This document shows positions 4,567 through 11,995 of a DNA stretch of 64,000 nucleotides, in pieces; positions within the stretch are counted from its first letter, which is position 1; each line of letters starts with the position of its first letter. The notes beneath the pieces are model-generated. The model did not search any database. It was given only the letters and a program-made list of their open reading frames with translations, and had not been told where the DNA came from. Source of the DNA: Methanococcus maripaludis (GTDB taxonomy: Archaea; AGJL01; Methanococci; Methanococcales; Methanococcaceae); assembly GCF_013760955.1 (NCBI RefSeq), contig NZ_JACDUL010000003.1, positions 254,872 to 318,871 on the forward strand, in the 5' to 3' direction. A program made the position numbers and the translations under genes.

Positions 4567-4611
4567 TCGATAGATCGGACTCAGGATTTTTGAAAATCGA
4601 TAGATCGGACT
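4567..4611. repeat. Two 15-bp TCGATAGATCGGACT direct repeats
   Basis: TCGATAGATCGGACT occurs at 4567-4581 and again at 4597-4611, exactly 30 bases apart. The core GATCGGAC recurs near both ends of the integrated element, yet these two copies lie outside its left boundary. They could be binding sites for a recombination protein or relics of an earlier integration at the same tRNA gene. Confidence 0.6.
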
Positions 4612-4764: not shown

Positions 4765-4821
4765 AAAAAGTGGAGGGAAAGGGATTTGAACCCTCGAACC
4801 GCTACCGGATCGGATCTTAAG
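4765..4821 (-). repeat. Left attachment site: displaced 3' part of tRNA-Leu
   Basis: These 57 bases are identical to 11905-11961, which include the 3' half of tRNA-Leu(UAA) (acceptor strand, T arm, variable arm and the 3' side of the anticodon arm). The identity stops just after the anticodon loop. The copy cannot form a tRNA because the 5' half is missing. This is the classic signature of a tyrosine-integrase element inserted into a tRNA gene: the element restores the tRNA at one end and leaves the original 3' fragment at the other. Confidence 0.9.
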
Positions 4822-4833
4822 GAATATTTACCC

Positions 4834-4969
4834 GATCGGACGCATTATTTTTGAGATTTGTGAAAAATAACAATTTTTTAATCGATATTATCAATTTTTT
4901 ACAAAACTCGTTTCATTTGTTTTTGAAAACAGGATCGGACTTAGTCCGATACGGTAAGAATGTCCGATC
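4834..4969. repeat. GATCGGAC octamer cluster at left end of element
   Basis: GATCGGAC occurs at 4834-4841 and 4933-4940, its partial complement GTCCGAT at 4944-4950, and the full complement GTCCGATC at 4962-4969. The 4933-4950 pair forms an inverted repeat around TTA. The sequence resembles the anticodon arm of the target tRNA. Similar copies lie near the right end at 11681, 11755 and 11784. They look like protein-binding sites for integration or excision; this is inference. Confidence 0.5.
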
Positions 4970-5109
4970 CGGTGATTTTTTGATTTTTCATAAAATTTAA
5001 TGCTAATTTTAGACGATTAATCTAATTAATGAGAACAATAAGGAAATTAATATATATTTTTAAATCCTACAATAATTGGGTATTTTTTAAAAATTATGGG
5101 GTGATACCT

Positions 5110-8100
5110 TTGAAATTGAAGATTTTAATGGTATGCATGGTAACGCTTTTTGTTTTAAACTCTTGCTGTGCTGAATATTACAATTTAGATTTTTTAATTG
5201 ACATAAACCACAATGAACCATCGTCCGAGTATGTAGTCTCGGGAGAAGAGGTAGATTTTAATATATTATTCAACACGATAGACAGGACTACCTCGAACGA
5301 AATTGAAAATATATGGGCAGATGATCCAGCAGTAACTGCAAATTTAACTAGTGTGCTTTTAATTGCTGCTGCAAATGACCGTTATAGTGAAGGCATGCTT
5401 TCATTTGTAAATGGTACATCAAATACAACAGATTTGTTTGATATAACTAATGCCGATATTTCAATGGATTTAGGCGAATTAATGTTGTTATCTCGAAGCT
5501 GGGAGGTAGATCCTTTTGAATGGTATTCTGATGATTTAGAAGCATCAGAAATCATTGTAGCGTTAATTAATAGTGAATCGAGTAATTTTAGCGAATCACC
5601 AGATTTAGAAGTTGACGAAGATGGAATGGTATATGCCTCAATAGTATTTCAAAATGGAGATGGGGAAAATTCTAATACTTACGGCACCCTTTCCCCAGGT
5701 ATGGTAATACCATTCCTCGGTCAAGAAATGCTAGTTGTAAAACTCGATAGTGACAATGATCAGGTTGTTTTGGGTAATGAATTATATGAAGGAATTCTGA
5801 AAAACAGTACCGAACAGGATATCGGGGAAGGCTATTCTGTTAAAGTATCGAATATATTATTTGAAGAACCTGATTATTACAAGGTTGAAATACAGGTTTT
5901 GAAAGACGGAAATGTTATTGACTCAAAATTTGATACTGTGGATGGAAACGGTACCCAGATAAACCTAATTTGTGGGGATATAGGGGTTGTTGTAAACGAT
6001 GCATTTAGAGATGAAAATGGAACTCGTTATGCACAACTTTTTGTCGCAGAAGATTTGGTTACTTTAGATTTAGGTGAAGAATATTCTGAATATTATGAAG
6101 CATGCACTGTTGATCTAATTCCGGGTGTTGGACTTAAATTATCAAACGATACTATTGCCCAAGGTAAAATCGTAGGTATAGCTTTGAAATACGTCGGCAA
6201 TATAATTAACAATATTAACTCTAATGAAGAATTAGATATTGCAAACTATACAAAATTAGAATTCGACAAAGAAAATGGAGAAATGTCCATCCAATTTGCA
6301 ATTTCTGATGTTGGAAATCTATCAAACACTTGCAATAATGTTAAGTATGTAATTAACACGACAGGACCCGGAGATGCATACTTTACTAACGGAAACTTTA
6401 GTTTTATAAACAATAGTATTTGGCCAGATGAGTCTTTTGACATTTTTAATGGATATTCAAATGCATCTAGCTGGAAATTAAAATTCACTGAGGCAGGAAC
6501 TTACAAAATAACAGTGGGTTTGGTAAATGCAACAAACACTTCAGATACGTCATGGGTGTTTAGAAATCACAGTTCTGTTTTAATCAAGGTTTTGGATCCC
6601 AAATACCCAAACTACGACTTCAAATATGAAATTCCTGAAGAAATTATTTCTGGAAAAGAAACAGAAATTAATTTAACACTTAATGTTACGGGAAAATTGG
6701 AATCCAACAGAATTGAAAATATATGGGAAAATAACGGTACGTTTAGTACGGATAATGAATTATTTATAATCGCTACAGGGAATGAGACATATTCTGAAGG
6801 ATTACTCGGCTTTTTAAGTTCTGAAAATGTAAAAATATCTGAATATGATGTTCAAGATGCATCAATTGGTGATATACATAAAAATTACTGCAATCTTGGA
6901 GAAATACCTGGCATGAAAGTTATTGAAAATGCCAACATGTGGAACTGGTACTTTGGATATGATTCATCTGACAGCCAATATACAGGTACAGTTCAGACAT
7001 TTGAGTCTGTTTCAGCAGTAATCAATACTGATTTAAATACTACTTTTGGTAGTGCTGAAAATCCAGACTTAAAAATAAAAAATAACAGTGCATTTTACAC
7101 TACACTAGCAGTAAAAAATCAAAAATCTGGAAATACCGTCAATGATTATGTAACTTTAGCCACGGGTACAAAAATTCCGATTCTGGGTAACGAAAAGGTT
7201 GTTATTGACGTGAATAGTGATGACAACCAGATAACGTTAGGTTTAGAAGTATTTAAAGGAGTTTTAGAAGAAGGAATGGCTTATGACCTTGGAAATGGAT
7301 ATTTGGTAAACATTACCAATGTTTTGAATGTTACAGGAGGATACAAAGCAGAAATACAGATTTTAAAAGATGGAAGAACTGTTGCATCAAAATTTGATAC
7401 TGTGGAGGAAGGACATCCATTTAAAATAATTTGTATGGATGTTGGGGTTATTGCAAATACTGCAATAATCGATATAGATGAAAATAAAGGATTTGTAGAA
7501 TTAGCAATATTGGATAATATTTCTCATGTAGAATTTGGTAAAGAATATTTGCCAGATTGGGAAGCCCGTGGTATCGTGGCCTCCATATCGGGTTTGGAAT
7601 TTAAGAACAATATTTCAGATAGTAAAATCGTTGGAATGGGTTTAAAATACGTAGGAAACGATGTAGATAATATCAATAATTTCAAAACATTTGAAATTGC
7701 AAATTATGCTAGAGTCGATTTTGATGAATATTCTGATAAAATGAGCATTCAATTTGCAATGGACAATAGGTACGAGGATGTTAAATACTTGGTAAGTGCG
7801 ACAGGGCCTGGAAACGTAAGTTTTACCAACAATAATTTAACTTTTATAAATACTGCGTTATGGCCAGAAAGTTCGTTTAGCGTTCCAAATGTTTACGAAA
7901 ACGATTTAATGTCCATGACGTGGAAACTGAACTTCAGCAAACCTGGAGATTATAACTTAACATTTAGTTTAGTAAATTCCAAAAATGAAACTATATCAAA
8001 TATTTCAAAATCCGAAATAATTACTGCAATCACAAAAGAAACTTTTGGAAATGTTTCGATTATCTATCTAACTGATGATATAACAAACACTACAATTATT

Positions 8101-9120
8101 GAAAATAGTGAATTTAATATTTCAAAAATAGATTTTACCACTAACGATAGCTTGTATTTGCCATTACTTGAAGAATTGGAAAATATCACATTACCTAAAG
8201 ATACCTTGGAAAAAATGGAAAATTTAACCAATGAAACAGAACTTTTTAACAATATCACTATTACAAGCGAAGAAGATATTTCGTATATCTTGAACTTTAC
8301 CAATAATACCTTTGTGGAAATACTAAATGAAGGATTTAATGTATCAAACATTACGTACCTGATTGAAAATAATGGTGGTAGCGTAAACGCAAATTTCACA
8401 TTTAATGCAGTAAATACCTCCGAAAAAGGAATATTAATCGTTAGACTTCCGATTGGAAACTTAACTCTTGATGAAATCATTGTAAATACAGGATCAGAAA
8501 ACGTTACGTTGGTAGAAAATAATATTTCTAGCACAATTGGTTGGTACAGAATTCCAAGTACTGGAATTTTAGAAATAACTCTTGTAAATGATCCATTGGT
8601 TACAGTTAAATTCTCATCTACAATTCCCACAACAACTTCCGGCGGTGGCGGAGGGGGCCTTGGTGGGGGAGCTTTGAATTCAGATGACGAATATACATTT
8701 AACTCAGAATCAATTAGAAAAGCCGTAACCAAATCAATAATTGTTTATGGAAACCTCGTGGATAAAGAATATGCACTGAATTTATGGAGTAACATAAGAA
8801 GTGGATATAATTATGAACTTATTGGAAACACAGTGATTGTTGGGGGGCCTAAAGCCAATGTTTGCGCCAACAAGTACGATTCAGAATTTGAAATACACAT
8901 TACAAATGAATTCCCTGGACAAAATAAAGGAATCATTCAAATTAAGGATATCGAAGTAAATTCTGAAAACCTCATAAAAACCTACCAAGTAATCTACATT
9001 GCAGGAAGTGATCGATACGGAACAGATGCTGCATTAGAATACTTTAAAACTTTGGAAGAACTTCCTGAAGAACCAATAATTGTTGAATGGACACAAACCG
9101 GTCCTGTTATAGCTGAATAA
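5110..9120 (+). CDS. Giant S-layer-like secreted surface protein
   Basis: The product has 1336 residues. The TTG at 5110 follows GGGGTGA at ideal spacing and begins a proper signal peptide (KLKILMVCMVTLFVLNSCCA); an in-frame ATG at 5029 would add 27 residues and hide it. Two tandem units, about residues 23-497 and 498-973, share landmarks such as IENIW, YSEG, ILKDG, SKFDTV and GLKYVGN. They resemble the S-layer duplication domain of methanogen surface proteins. An Asn/Thr-rich stalk follows, rich in N-x-S/T glycosylation sequons, then a Gly-rich linker (~1178-1188). The C-terminal domain contains VIVGGPKANV and YIAGSDRYGTDAA, like the Methanococcus S-layer C-domain. It is cargo of the tRNA-Leu element. 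Confidence 0.75.
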   Translation: MKLKILMVCMVTLFVLNSCCAEYYNLDFLIDINHNEPSSEYVVSGEEVDFNILFNTIDRTTSNEIENIWADDPAVTANLTSVLLIAAANDRYSEGMLSFVNGTSNTTDLFDITNADISMDLGELMLLSRSWEVDPFEWYSDDLEASEIIVALINSESSNFSESPDLEVDEDGMVYASIVFQNGDGENSNTYGTLSPGMVIPFLGQEMLVVKLDSDNDQVVLGNELYEGILKNSTEQDIGEGYSVKVSNILFEEPDYYKVEIQVLKDGNVIDSKFDTVDGNGTQINLICGDIGVVVNDAFRDENGTRYAQLFVAEDLVTLDLGEEYSEYYEACTVDLIPGVGLKLSNDTIAQGKIVGIALKYVGNIINNINSNEELDIANYTKLEFDKENGEMSIQFAISDVGNLSNTCNNVKYVINTTGPGDAYFTNGNFSFINNSIWPDESFDIFNGYSNASSWKLKFTEAGTYKITVGLVNATNTSDTSWVFRNHSSVLIKVLDPKYPNYDFKYEIPEEIISGKETEINLTLNVTGKLESNRIENIWENNGTFSTDNELFIIATGNETYSEGLLGFLSSENVKISEYDVQDASIGDIHKNYCNLGEIPGMKVIENANMWNWYFGYDSSDSQYTGTVQTFESVSAVINTDLNTTFGSAENPDLKIKNNSAFYTTLAVKNQKSGNTVNDYVTLATGTKIPILGNEKVVIDVNSDDNQITLGLEVFKGVLEEGMAYDLGNGYLVNITNVLNVTGGYKAEIQILKDGRTVASKFDTVEEGHPFKIICMDVGVIANTAIIDIDENKGFVELAILDNISHVEFGKEYLPDWEARGIVASISGLEFKNNISDSKIVGMGLKYVGNDVDNINNFKTFEIANYARVDFDEYSDKMSIQFAMDNRYEDVKYLVSATGPGNVSFTNNNLTFINTALWPESSFSVPNVYENDLMSMTWKLNFSKPGDYNLTFSLVNSKNETISNISKSEIITAITKETFGNVSIIYLTDDITNTTIIENSEFNISKIDFTTNDSLYLPLLEELENITLPKDTLEKMENLTNETELFNNITITSEEDISYILNFTNNTFVEILNEGFNVSNITYLIENNGGSVNANFTFNAVNTSEKGILIVRLPIGNLTLDEIIVNTGSENVTLVENNISSTIGWYRIPSTGILEITLVNDPLVTVKFSSTIPTTTSGGGGGGLGGGALNSDDEYTFNSESIRKAVTKSIIVYGNLVDKEYALNLWSNIRSGYNYELIGNTVIVGGPKANVCANKYDSEFEIHITNEFPGQNKGIIQIKDIEVNSENLIKTYQVIYIAGSDRYGTDAALEYFKTLEELPEEPIIVEWTQTGPVIAE

Positions 9121-9188: not shown

Positions 9189-9209
9189 CATATCTTGTTG
9201 TTTTTGATG
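9189..9209 (+). repeat. 21-bp repeat, copy 1, upstream of PemK module
   Basis: Twenty-one bases beginning CATATCTTGTTG are identical at 9189-9209 and 10081-10101. Similarity continues imperfectly for about 40 further bases, to about 9250 and 10140. Each copy lies upstream of one toxin-antitoxin module, so the two modules share a duplicated upstream segment. Confidence 0.6.
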
Positions 9210-9268
9210 TTTTTTTAAAAAATTAAAACCAAATTTAAAAAAGTATTTAATGATAAAATAATGATTTA

Positions 9269-9296: not shown

Positions 9297-9436
9297 GTTC
9301 AAAAATAAAACGTATTTTAAAACCTGTTACTTGCCCATATATGGGGTAATGAACTTGAAACATAATCAATTATTAAATATTTTATAACAGAAAATACATA
9401 GATATAGAATAATTAAAAATAATTCAAGTGGTAAAT

Positions 9437-9673
9437 ATGTTTAAAACAGTTCAAAAAATAAAGATCCCAAGAGATCATAAAGTAACGATAGAACTTCCAA
9501 AATTCTTAAAAGAAAATGAAGAAATAGAGATAGTTATTACTGCAAATCCATCTGAATTAACATTGTCTCAGAAATTAGAATTAATGAAAATGGCAGCCAA
9601 GGATAAAATGTATTTAAAAGATATTTCAGAAATTAACGAAGATTTTAGATATGTTGATTCAGTAGGTTGGTAA
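9437..9673 (+). CDS. Antitoxin of PemK/MazF-type module
   Basis: This is a 78-residue protein directly upstream of a PemK-like toxin gene. The N-terminus (KTVQKIKIPRDHKVTIELPKF followed by a charged KENEEIEIVI stretch) has the alternating pattern of a small beta DNA-binding fold. The C-terminus (MAAKDKMYLKDISEINEDFRYVD) is an acidic tail of the sort that wraps and inhibits toxins. The ATG at 9437 is preferred over an in-frame GTG at 9428, because GTGGT then serves as the ribosome binding site. The stop codon is only one base before the toxin start, indicating translational coupling. Confidence 0.65.
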   Translation: MFKTVQKIKIPRDHKVTIELPKFLKENEEIEIVITANPSELTLSQKLELMKMAAKDKMYLKDISEINEDFRYVDSVGW

Positions 9674-10080: not shown

Positions 10081-10101
10081 CATATCTTGTTGTTTTTGAT
10101 G
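10081..10101 (+). repeat. 21-bp repeat, copy 2, upstream of RelB-like gene
   Basis: This block is identical to 9189-9209, with further imperfect similarity to about 10140. It lies about 90 bases before the RelB-like antitoxin start. The duplication suggests that the two modules arose with a common upstream region or share a regulator. Confidence 0.6.
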
Positions 10102-10189
10102 CTTTATAAAAAAATTTAAAACTAAATTTGAAAAGGTATTATGTGTAAATAAATATTCCCATGTAAATATAAAACTTGAAAAGGATACT

Positions 10190-10414
10190 ATGAACGTTAA
10201 GAGAACTTACAGCATTGATGAAACAGTAGTTAAAAAATTTTCGGAATATTGTGACGAAAGGGGGCTCAACATGGGTAAACAGATTGAAACCTTCATGAAA
10301 TATGTTGTCGAAGGATCCGAAGTTAGGCCAAAATACCTTGAAAAATTAGAAGAAATTCGAAAAGGAGAGTTTATTCCAGTTAAGGATTTTGCCAAACACT
10401 ATGGGTTAAAATAA
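10190..10414 (+). CDS. RelB-like antitoxin with ribbon-helix-helix N-terminus
   Basis: The product has 74 residues. MNVKRTYSIDETVVKKFSEYC followed by GKQIETFMKYVV fits a ribbon-helix-helix: one beta strand and two helices. The C-terminal KGEFIPVKDFAKHYGLK is a signature tail of archaeal RelB-type antitoxins that grips RelE toxins. The next gene downstream is a broken RelE-like toxin, so this antitoxin appears to have lost its functional partner. GAAAAGGATACT lies before the ATG and provides a moderate ribosome binding site. Confidence 0.7.
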   Translation: MNVKRTYSIDETVVKKFSEYCDERGLNMGKQIETFMKYVVEGSEVRPKYLEKLEEIRKGEFIPVKDFAKHYGLK

Positions 10415-10465: not shown

Positions 10466-10702
10466 GTGATAAAAAAATTTATAGAAACTGTAAATAAAAA
10501 AGTAAGCGAAATTCTGGAAAATCCCGAACACTACAAGCCACTACGTGGTGATATGCAGTGATCAAGACGAGCCAATGTTCAATCATCTTATGCCATAGTT
10601 TACGAAATTGATGGAAATACTGTAAGATTATTGGATATTGAACAACATGATAAGGTTTACTTAATTTTAACAATATTTGAATTATTAATTAAAAATATTT
10701 AA
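10466..10702 (+). pseudogene. RelE-type toxin interrupted by in-frame TGA
   Basis: From GTG 10466 the frame reads KKFIETVNKKVSEILENPEH, then YKPLRGDMQ, a TGA stop at 10559-10561, and then continues in the same frame with SRRANVQSSYAIVYEIDGN and LLDIEQHDKVY. LRGD followed by an RR-containing strand, and the final HDKVY, are RelE family hallmarks, so both halves belong to one gene. A single nonsense change breaks the toxin. UGA can encode selenocysteine in this genus, but no SECIS-like fold is visible in the AT-rich 3' flank and RelE proteins have no Cys at this point, so a null mutation is the simpler reading. Confidence 0.7.
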
Positions 10703-10812: not shown

Positions 10813-11643
10813 TTTAAAACTGTTGATCTGACAGAATACAAAAAAATTGTTGAGTAATACATTTATTAAACTAGCAGATCGGTTTTTTTTAGATTTTTAA
10901 AAGAAAATCATGGAGAAATCAATCAATTAAAAGACATTAATGAAGTACACATTCAAGAATTCTTAAACTTTAAAGCTGATGTGTGTACAACTGAAACTCT
11001 TTACAATTATCGTGCAAGATTTAAAAAAATTGCACTTTGCGTAAATCATGCATTCCAATCATGTGCAATGAAGGTTTCAAATGTGGTAATTCCCCAATCT
11101 TTGGTTGGAAAATCAAAGAGGGATATCACGATGACAGAAGAACATGCTGAACTTTTGTTAAATTACTGTAAAAACAGTACTGCAAAGGCTGCGATTGGGG
11201 TTAGATTTGCTTTGATGTTTGGACTGCGTGTTTCCGAAGTTACCAAAATCATGGCCAAAGATATTGATTTTGAAAAAAGGACTTTGCATATTCATCGAAG
11301 TAAAGGTGGACTCAGTAGAGACATTCCAATTGCAGAATTGCATTTGAAATTTTTAAAAGAAATCAAGAATCAATTTGATGAAAATCAGAGACTCTGCCCT
11401 TTAAAGAATGATTCGGTCAACAAATTCATATATCGGGTTTTCGAGTTTCACGGAATAAATGACTACAAAGATGCAAAAACGTCTGTTCACGCCATTCGGA
11501 AATTGTGGGCACAGAAATTGTACAATAAATTACGCCATGAAGGAAAAACAATAAAACAGGCATGTGAAGAAGTATCAGTTCAGTTGGGTCACGGAAAAGA
11601 TAGAAAAGATGTATTCAACAGATATATATCAAATATATGGTAA
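10813..11643 (+). pseudogene. Tyrosine integrase with nonsense codons in N-terminal region
   Basis: The catalytic domain is intact: FGLRVSEV supplies the first Arg, SKGGLSRDIP a Lys, SVHAIRKL the H-x-x-R box, QLGHGKD the second His, and FNRYISN the Tyr nucleophile. The core-binding domain extends upstream in the same frame (FRFLKENHGEINQLKDINEV, QEFLNF) beyond the only usable start, GTG 10981. Reading further up gives VDLTEYKKIVE, TAA at 10855, YIY, and TAA at 10867. The N-terminal arm-binding part therefore appears to have been lost to two nonsense codons. A truncated 220-residue product from GTG 10981 remains possible. It sits beside the tRNA-Leu target, as expected. Confidence 0.75.
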
Positions 11644-11680: not shown

Positions 11681-11790
11681 GATCGGACTAATGAAATCCT
11701 TTAATTCAAAAATAGAGCCCGATTTGGGCATATTTTTTTAACGACCAAAAAAAAGTCCGATCCGGTATCTCCGGAAATCGCTAGTCCGAT
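11681..11790. repeat. GATCGGAC octamer cluster at right end of element
   Basis: GATCGGAC lies at 11681-11688, its complement GTCCGATC at 11755-11762 (continuing CGGT, as also at 4962-4973), and GTCCGAT at 11784-11790. All lie between the integrase and the tRNA. Together with the left-end cluster they form a family of sites flanking both attachment sites. Confidence 0.5.
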
Positions 11791-11904
11791 GGTAAATTTT
11801 TGAAAAAATTGACATAACAGACGATGTAACATCGAGATAGAAATAAACTGACAATAAAAAACGACATATATCAAAAAAGACGTTCGTTTTGAAGTTGATT
11901 TTAA

Positions 11905-11961
11905 AAAAAGTGGAGGGAAAGGGATTTGAACCCTCGAACCGCTACCGGATCGGATCTTAAG
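11905..11961 (-). repeat. Right attachment site within intact tRNA-Leu
   Basis: This 57-base block is the element-borne copy that completes the functional tRNA and is identical to 4765-4821. Identity ends one base past the TTAAGA of the anticodon loop, so strand exchange probably occurred at or near the anticodon loop, a common crossover point for tRNA-targeting tyrosine integrases. Confidence 0.88.
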
Positions 11962-11995
11962 TCCGACGCCTTTGACCAGGCTTGGCAATCCCTCC
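11911..11995 (-). tRNA. tRNA-Leu (anticodon UAA)
   Basis: On the minus strand the 85 bases form a class II tRNA. The acceptor stem GGAGGGA pairs with TCCCTCC, followed by discriminator A. A D arm is present. The anticodon stem TCGGA/TCCGA encloses the loop CTTAAGA with anticodon TAA. A long variable arm and a T arm with GTTCAAAT follow. The CCA end is not encoded. The gene is the integration target of the adjacent element, whose end supplies its 3' half. The A discriminator and long variable arm fit leucine. Confidence 0.93.

Follow-up and report, generated by a model that had tools for sequence, protein, structure and literature searches.

A tRNA-Leu-integrated element of a Methanococcus-type host carries the gene for a tandem-core S-layer-type surface protein

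The window, i.e. the whole 64,000-nucleotide stretch of DNA analysed here, contains a small element integrated at a tRNA-Leu gene, and this element carries the gene for an S-layer-type surface protein in which two S-layer cores are followed by a stalk, a flexible linker and a C-terminal anchor domain. The two units that hold the cores descend from the main Methanococcales S-layer protein of the genus, their exact placement being provisional. The product is probably an anchored and glycosylated accessory component of the S-layer, carried as cargo beside a MazF-type toxin-antitoxin pair, which would alter the make-up of the cell coat and whose benefit likely lies in surface variation.

Parts and relatives of the surface protein

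The reading frame at 5029-9120 is open over 1363 codons from ATG 5029 (Table 1; residue numbers refer to this frame). TTG 5110, the start chosen in the preliminary description, is the better one as GGGGTGAT lies directly upstream and the signal-peptide-like KLKILMVCMVTLFVLNSCCA follows. The parts listed there, i.e. a signal peptide, two tandem units, an Asn/Thr-rich stalk, a glycine linker and an end with VGGP and AGSDRYGTDAA, can all be found in the sequence, the linker as SGGGGGGLGGG. The units comprise ~470 residues each and are 34% identical when aligned over ~460 residues. PF05123 matches twice, together with 429 bits (E 2.4e-128), which excludes chance, and TIGR01564 matches the surface protein with 299 bits.

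Table 1. Coordinates of the features of the element in the window
Feature	Position	Strand	Basis or remark
attL	4765..4821	.	57-bp exact copy of tRNA-Leu 3' half; direct repeat; left end matches that of G001
Left-end repeats (A)TCGGAC/GTCCGAT(C)	4835..4972	.	GTCCGATACGGTAAGAATGTCCGATCC identical in G001 sister element
S-layer-like surface protein, 1336 aa from likely start TTG 5110	5110..9120	+	longest ORF: ATG 5029
Signal-peptide-like segment KLKILMVCMVTLFVLNSCCA	5110..5172	+	judged from sequence
Unit 1, residues 49-524 (476 residues): PF05123 core 110-426, beta-rich extension after	5173..6600	+	profile match; AF2 model matches 3u2g
Unit 2, residues 525-985 (461 residues): second PF05123 core ~620-918 and same extension	6601..7983	+	
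Asn/Thr-rich beta stalk, residues 986-1203, 19 N-X-S/T sites	7984..8637	+	homologous stalks in other Methanococcales proteins
Glycine-rich flexible linker	8638..8688	+	pLDDT < 50
C-terminal anchor domain, residues 1221-1363, contiguous	8689..9117	+	partial PF05124; Foldseek match to 9FSA
Putative antitoxin, 81 aa, first gene of MazF pair	9428..9673	+	position alone; conserved in G001
MazF/PemK-type toxin, 118 aa	9675..10031	+	PF02452, E 1.4e-25
Small ORF, possible ribbon-helix-helix antitoxin	10190..10411	+	translation read by eye
RelE-like remnant, broken (in-frame stop)	10475..10699	+	similar intact gene L060:13121-13408
Tyrosine integrase, catalytic domain kept, N-terminal part of homologue missing	10870..11643	+	PF00589
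Right-end ATCGGAC/GTCCGAT repeats	11682..11792	.	putative arm sites
attR core	11905..11961	.	inside intact tRNA-Leu

The cores stand in tandem and outside any anchor, each followed by a beta-rich extension, whereas the S-layer proteins of the host (562, 532 and 532 aa) have one core each, inserted between two PF05124 halves, with PF05124 positions 1-177 matched around the core. No such split PF05124 is found in the surface protein, where the C-terminal PF05124 stretch alone matches. A C-terminal transmembrane helix is likewise absent: the C-terminus (...EEPIIVEWTQTGPVIAE) is free of long hydrophobic stretches and is predicted to be a folded alpha/beta domain. The stalk consists of Asn (13.8%) and Thr (14.7%) to a large part, and the whole protein contains 50 N-X-S/T motifs, 31 of them within the two units, as compared to 22 +- 4.1 in shuffled sequences of the same composition and to 1 in each host S-layer protein. 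As several other proteins with this type of anchor are also enriched in N-X-S/T, the enrichment marks that class and not the surface protein alone; judged from the motifs, the protein is probably heavily N-glycosylated.

The AlphaFold2 model of unit 1, calculated from a 33-row alignment, has a mean pLDDT of 72.8, with values below 50 for most of the last ~100 residues. Among PDB entries its only match below 0.001 is 3u2g, the DUF1608 domain of Methanosarcina acetivorans MA0829 (E 7.4e-10, probability 1.00, TM 0.44, rmsd 8.4 A), so that the predicted fold is not an unrelated one; the relative orientation of the domains is, however, unsure, given the moderate model and the TM and rmsd values. 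Independently of the fold match, the canonical S-layer protein of the host matches the Methanosarcina model TIGR01567 weakly (E 2.1e-7), and taken together the two matches suggest that the two core families are remotely related. An analogous arrangement has been described for the S-layer proteins of Methanococcus and M. acetivorans (PMC11410804). Thus, the earlier proposal that the units resemble the Methanosarcinales domain is upheld for the fold, but not for the sequence, which belongs to PF05123 and not to PF07752.

The model of the C-terminal region (pLDDT 81.5) shows a beta stalk, a disordered glycine linker and an alpha/beta domain. Its sole match below 0.001 is 9FSA (E 9e-4, 121 columns of the 135-residue target), the anchor structure of the S-layer protein from M. 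voltae (PMC11410804), in agreement with the Methanococcus S-layer type suggested before for this end of the protein. 9FSA is built from residues 24-75 and 484-576, whereas the corresponding domain of the window protein is contiguous, and its first beta-alpha unit may, according to the structural match, be the counterpart of the N-terminal part in the split anchor. By sequence, just the VGGP...AG.DR part can be aligned to the split anchor, with a score of 56 as compared to 42 for the best of 200 shuffles. A sequence search of the PDB with the whole surface protein gave no significant match, and among viral structures there was no credible match, the single one below 0.001 having a probability of 0.12.

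The module of stalk, linker and C-terminal domain (VGGP/AGSDRxGTxAA; 22-row alignment with 26 invariant columns) is common in surface proteins of Methanococcales, where it is combined with various passengers, e.g. papain-like or cohesin/CARDB domains, and this variety argues for a general anchoring role. In the host genome (1.76 Mb, order Methanococcales) the same anchor module ends a 718-aa papain-like protein encoded on a 24.7-kb contig (L086, G000:C6:15527-17683).

S-layer proteins of the PF05123 family were found in 31 of 36 Methanococcales genomes, each species being represented by one genome; a phylum-wide search led to the same 36 genomes, and the PF05123 control matched only Methanocaldococcus jannaschii. 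Almost all of the other S-layer proteins of the family have 525-600 aa and a few 667-868 aa. The window protein (1363 aa) is alone in these genomes in having two full cores per chain, the tandem-core gene occurs in a single genome, and no further copy was found in the 36 genomes, i.e. none of these relatives has it as a fixed chromosomal gene outside the element. The gene was also absent from 25 more distant relatives outside Methanococcales (protein search), from known plasmids and phages (tblastn) and from viral contigs (profile and integrase queries). A distant, chromosomally encoded protein of 1248 aa in another genome (G033, L109 7608-11354) combines a repeat-rich N-terminal part, three partial cores, stalk and anchor.

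In a tree of 33 rows units 1 and 2 form a sister pair (100/99), which groups with the main S-layer proteins of G000, G001 and G003 (100/99), and each unit placed singly comes to the same position (98 and 96 SH-aLRT). As both units are on long branches, their exact placement is provisional; their identity to host-type cores is at most ~43%. An origin from Methanosarcinales by sequence is ruled out, since the units are PF05123 domains, have no PF07752 match and group with Methanococcales. The idea of a mosaic across lineages, put forward in the preliminary description, thus has to be given up: the units branch with the main S-layer protein of the genus itself, and the protein consists of Methanococcales parts rearranged in a Methanosarcina-like layout.

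The element and its other genes

The insert has a length of 7,140 bp, and exact direct repeats of 57 bp form its boundaries; the second of these is part of the tRNA-Leu gene (11910-11995). In one relative (G004) the site is exactly empty, the flanks being contiguous around a single 57-bp copy (L060 16690-16746), and the same flank overlap is found in G003. Direct repeats at a tRNA gene, a tyrosine integrase and an empty site in relatives, i.e. the marks of a tRNA-targeting integrative element, are thus all present, in line with the earlier view that the surface protein, now recognized as S-layer-type by its two PF05123 matches, is encoded on an integrated element. The short repeated motifs at the left and right ends are probable arm sites of the recombinase. 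Two ATCGGACT motifs resembling arm sites lie directly outside attL (4574-4610), and one is found outside attL in G001, too.

A closer relative than the one with the empty site, G001, has a sister element at the same tRNA-Leu (L061 9746-9802 and 16472-16528). Left end (91%), MazF region (89%) and integrase (~76-77%) are common to both elements, but the sister element lacks the S-layer gene, positions corresponding to ~4975 and ~9192 of the window being joined almost directly. Its other cargo includes a second recombinase as well as a protein of 275 aa (L061 12943-13770) that belongs to PDC-S14 (E 1.5e-65), a candidate group for phage defence in PADLOC. In another region of G001 (L107, G001:C1:1114000-1133000) there is a second copy of the integrase (1124286-1125230), 90% identical to the tRNA-Leu copy, which adjoins a joined att site; the latter has both arms, resembles attP and is not accompanied by a tRNA-Leu. 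Thus, the second copy is apparently part of a larger island that was integrated at another place, possibly close to a tRNA-Ser. In G004 a cluster that includes genes for SIR2-like and OLD-like ATPase proteins (L060 2287-11745), near the empty tRNA-Leu site, is possibly a defence island.

The 81-aa putative antitoxin has no family match in the profile search. AT-rich repeats of ~65 bp, similar to each other, precede both toxin-antitoxin regions (9196-9260 and 10084-10152), as though each region formed a cassette that shares its upstream sequence with the other. The integrase can be aligned to its G001 homologue only from residue 134 of the latter's 385-aa ORF on and is therefore not complete. 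We infer from the missing N-terminal part and the broken RelE-like gene that the element is probably not self-mobile now. Moreover, neither the surface gene nor the MazF pair is damaged, whereas integrase and RelE-like gene are broken, which suggests that selection keeps the former two. Upstream of the element, a 1609-aa protein with a C-terminal membrane helix is encoded (L017 15043-19872), whose translation reads like that of a surface-exposed cobaltochelatase (CobN)-like protein.

Possible role in the cell coat

In the reading we favour, a small tRNA-Leu element of a Methanococcus-type host carries the gene for an accessory S-layer-type glycoprotein beside a MazF-type toxin-antitoxin pair. 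The protein would be exported and N-glycosylated at many of its 50 sites, and would be attached to the envelope by a domain of the type that also fixes the S-layer protein of the host there. On its stalk, the pair of cores may then be held at the host lattice or above it, altering the composition of the coat. The toxin-antitoxin pair may help to keep the cargo, and the benefit would most likely be surface variation, affecting what binds to the cell, e.g. viruses, other cells or surfaces.

It is possible, if doubtful, that the protein is an adhesin, its cores being mere display domains on a stalk for contact to cells or surfaces and perhaps aiding the transfer of the element. Stalk and anchor are common to many adhesin-like proteins of Methanococcales (~430-2300 aa), and the distant G033 protein combines three partial cores and a repeat-rich part with such a module; however, the surface protein contains no known binding domain and no transfer genes were seen in the element. 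An unlikely, though reasoned, role is the exclusion of viruses, the protein covering or replacing the receptor surface of the S-layer and thus protecting host and element. The dense predicted glycosylation and the PDC-S14 candidate, which the G001 element at this tRNA carries instead, fit this role, but the connection of the two cargoes is a circumstantial one, and a search of the defence library gave no match to the surface protein. For the archaeal virus HFTV1 an S-layer glycoprotein is likely the receptor (PMC9973310), which fits as well.

Distinctly unlikely is an alternative S-layer subunit, whose two cores would form a covalent pseudo-dimer that co-assembles into the hexagonal host lattice or replaces it locally, like the tandem-core protein of Methanosarcina. 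That protein, with its tandem DUF1608 domains, linker and membrane anchor (PMC3361143), the fold match and the dimeric anchor with which Methanococcus lattices have been modelled (PMC11410804) speak for it. On the other hand, the cores have no split anchor around them and are at most ~43% identical to host-type cores, and the 31 N-X-S/T sites in the units, as opposed to 1 per host protein, suggest that the packing of the unit surfaces differs from that in the host lattice. More improbable still would be a remodelling of the lattice by the insertion of a covalent two-core subunit, i.e. a tile of the Methanosarcina type composed of Methanococcus parts, e.g. as a protection from viruses for which the cell coat is the receptor. 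An ordinary chromosomal S-layer paralogue flanked by the repeat by chance, for which one might cite the truncated integrase of an element that may not move alone now, is hardly credible and already contradicted by the empty site, as well as opposed by the exact 57-bp repeats, the gene-free sister element and the lack of a copy in the 36 genomes.

The accessory component that we prefer presents S-layer cores as movable and duplicable passengers, freed from the split anchor, and it is one case of the Methanosarcina tandem-core layout in another order, made of that order's own domains, which bears on the evolution of single-core and tandem-core S-layers. Should the protein become part of the coat, it would offer a tractable example of how a mobile element alters the surface of an archaeon, the host belonging or being close to a genus for which genetic tools exist.

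Comparison with known systems

Like the S-layer protein of Methanococcales (TIGR01564; M. voltae Q50833), the window protein has cores of the PF05123 family and the same anchor fold, and the nearest neighbours of its units in the tree are the main S-layer proteins of the genus. Nevertheless, it has two cores instead of one and an added stalk, is ~2.4 times longer, ends with an undivided anchor rather than having one split around the core, and has 50 glycosylation motifs instead of 1.

With Methanosarcina SlmA1/MA0829 (PF07752; 3u2g) it shares the order of signal, two tandem cores, linker or stalk and envelope anchor, as well as the unit fold. It differs in having no significant match to PF07752 or TIGR01567, no C-terminal transmembrane helix and a much longer stalk. 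The anchor-module proteins of Methanococcales have the same stalk, linker and anchor, with up to 60% identity over residues 1193-1361, whereas the passenger of the window protein is a pair of S-layer cores encoded on an integrated element.

As to the element, integrated forms of the pT26-2 plasmid family are known from Methanococcus and share seven core genes, including those of a putative secretion system; compared by size, the 7.1-kb element is far smaller than the Methanococcus forms listed in PMC6972569. Among the cryptic integrated elements described for Thaumarchaeota (PMC6563490) there is also a small, integrase-bearing one with a gene of the S-layer type as cargo, which encodes an S-layer protein with an Ig domain. 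Its host belongs to another phylum, and a tandem-core architecture is not mentioned in the passage on it. In view of this precedent, the transport of an S-layer gene by an archaeal integrated element is not new in itself; the new part is the architecture of the surface protein.
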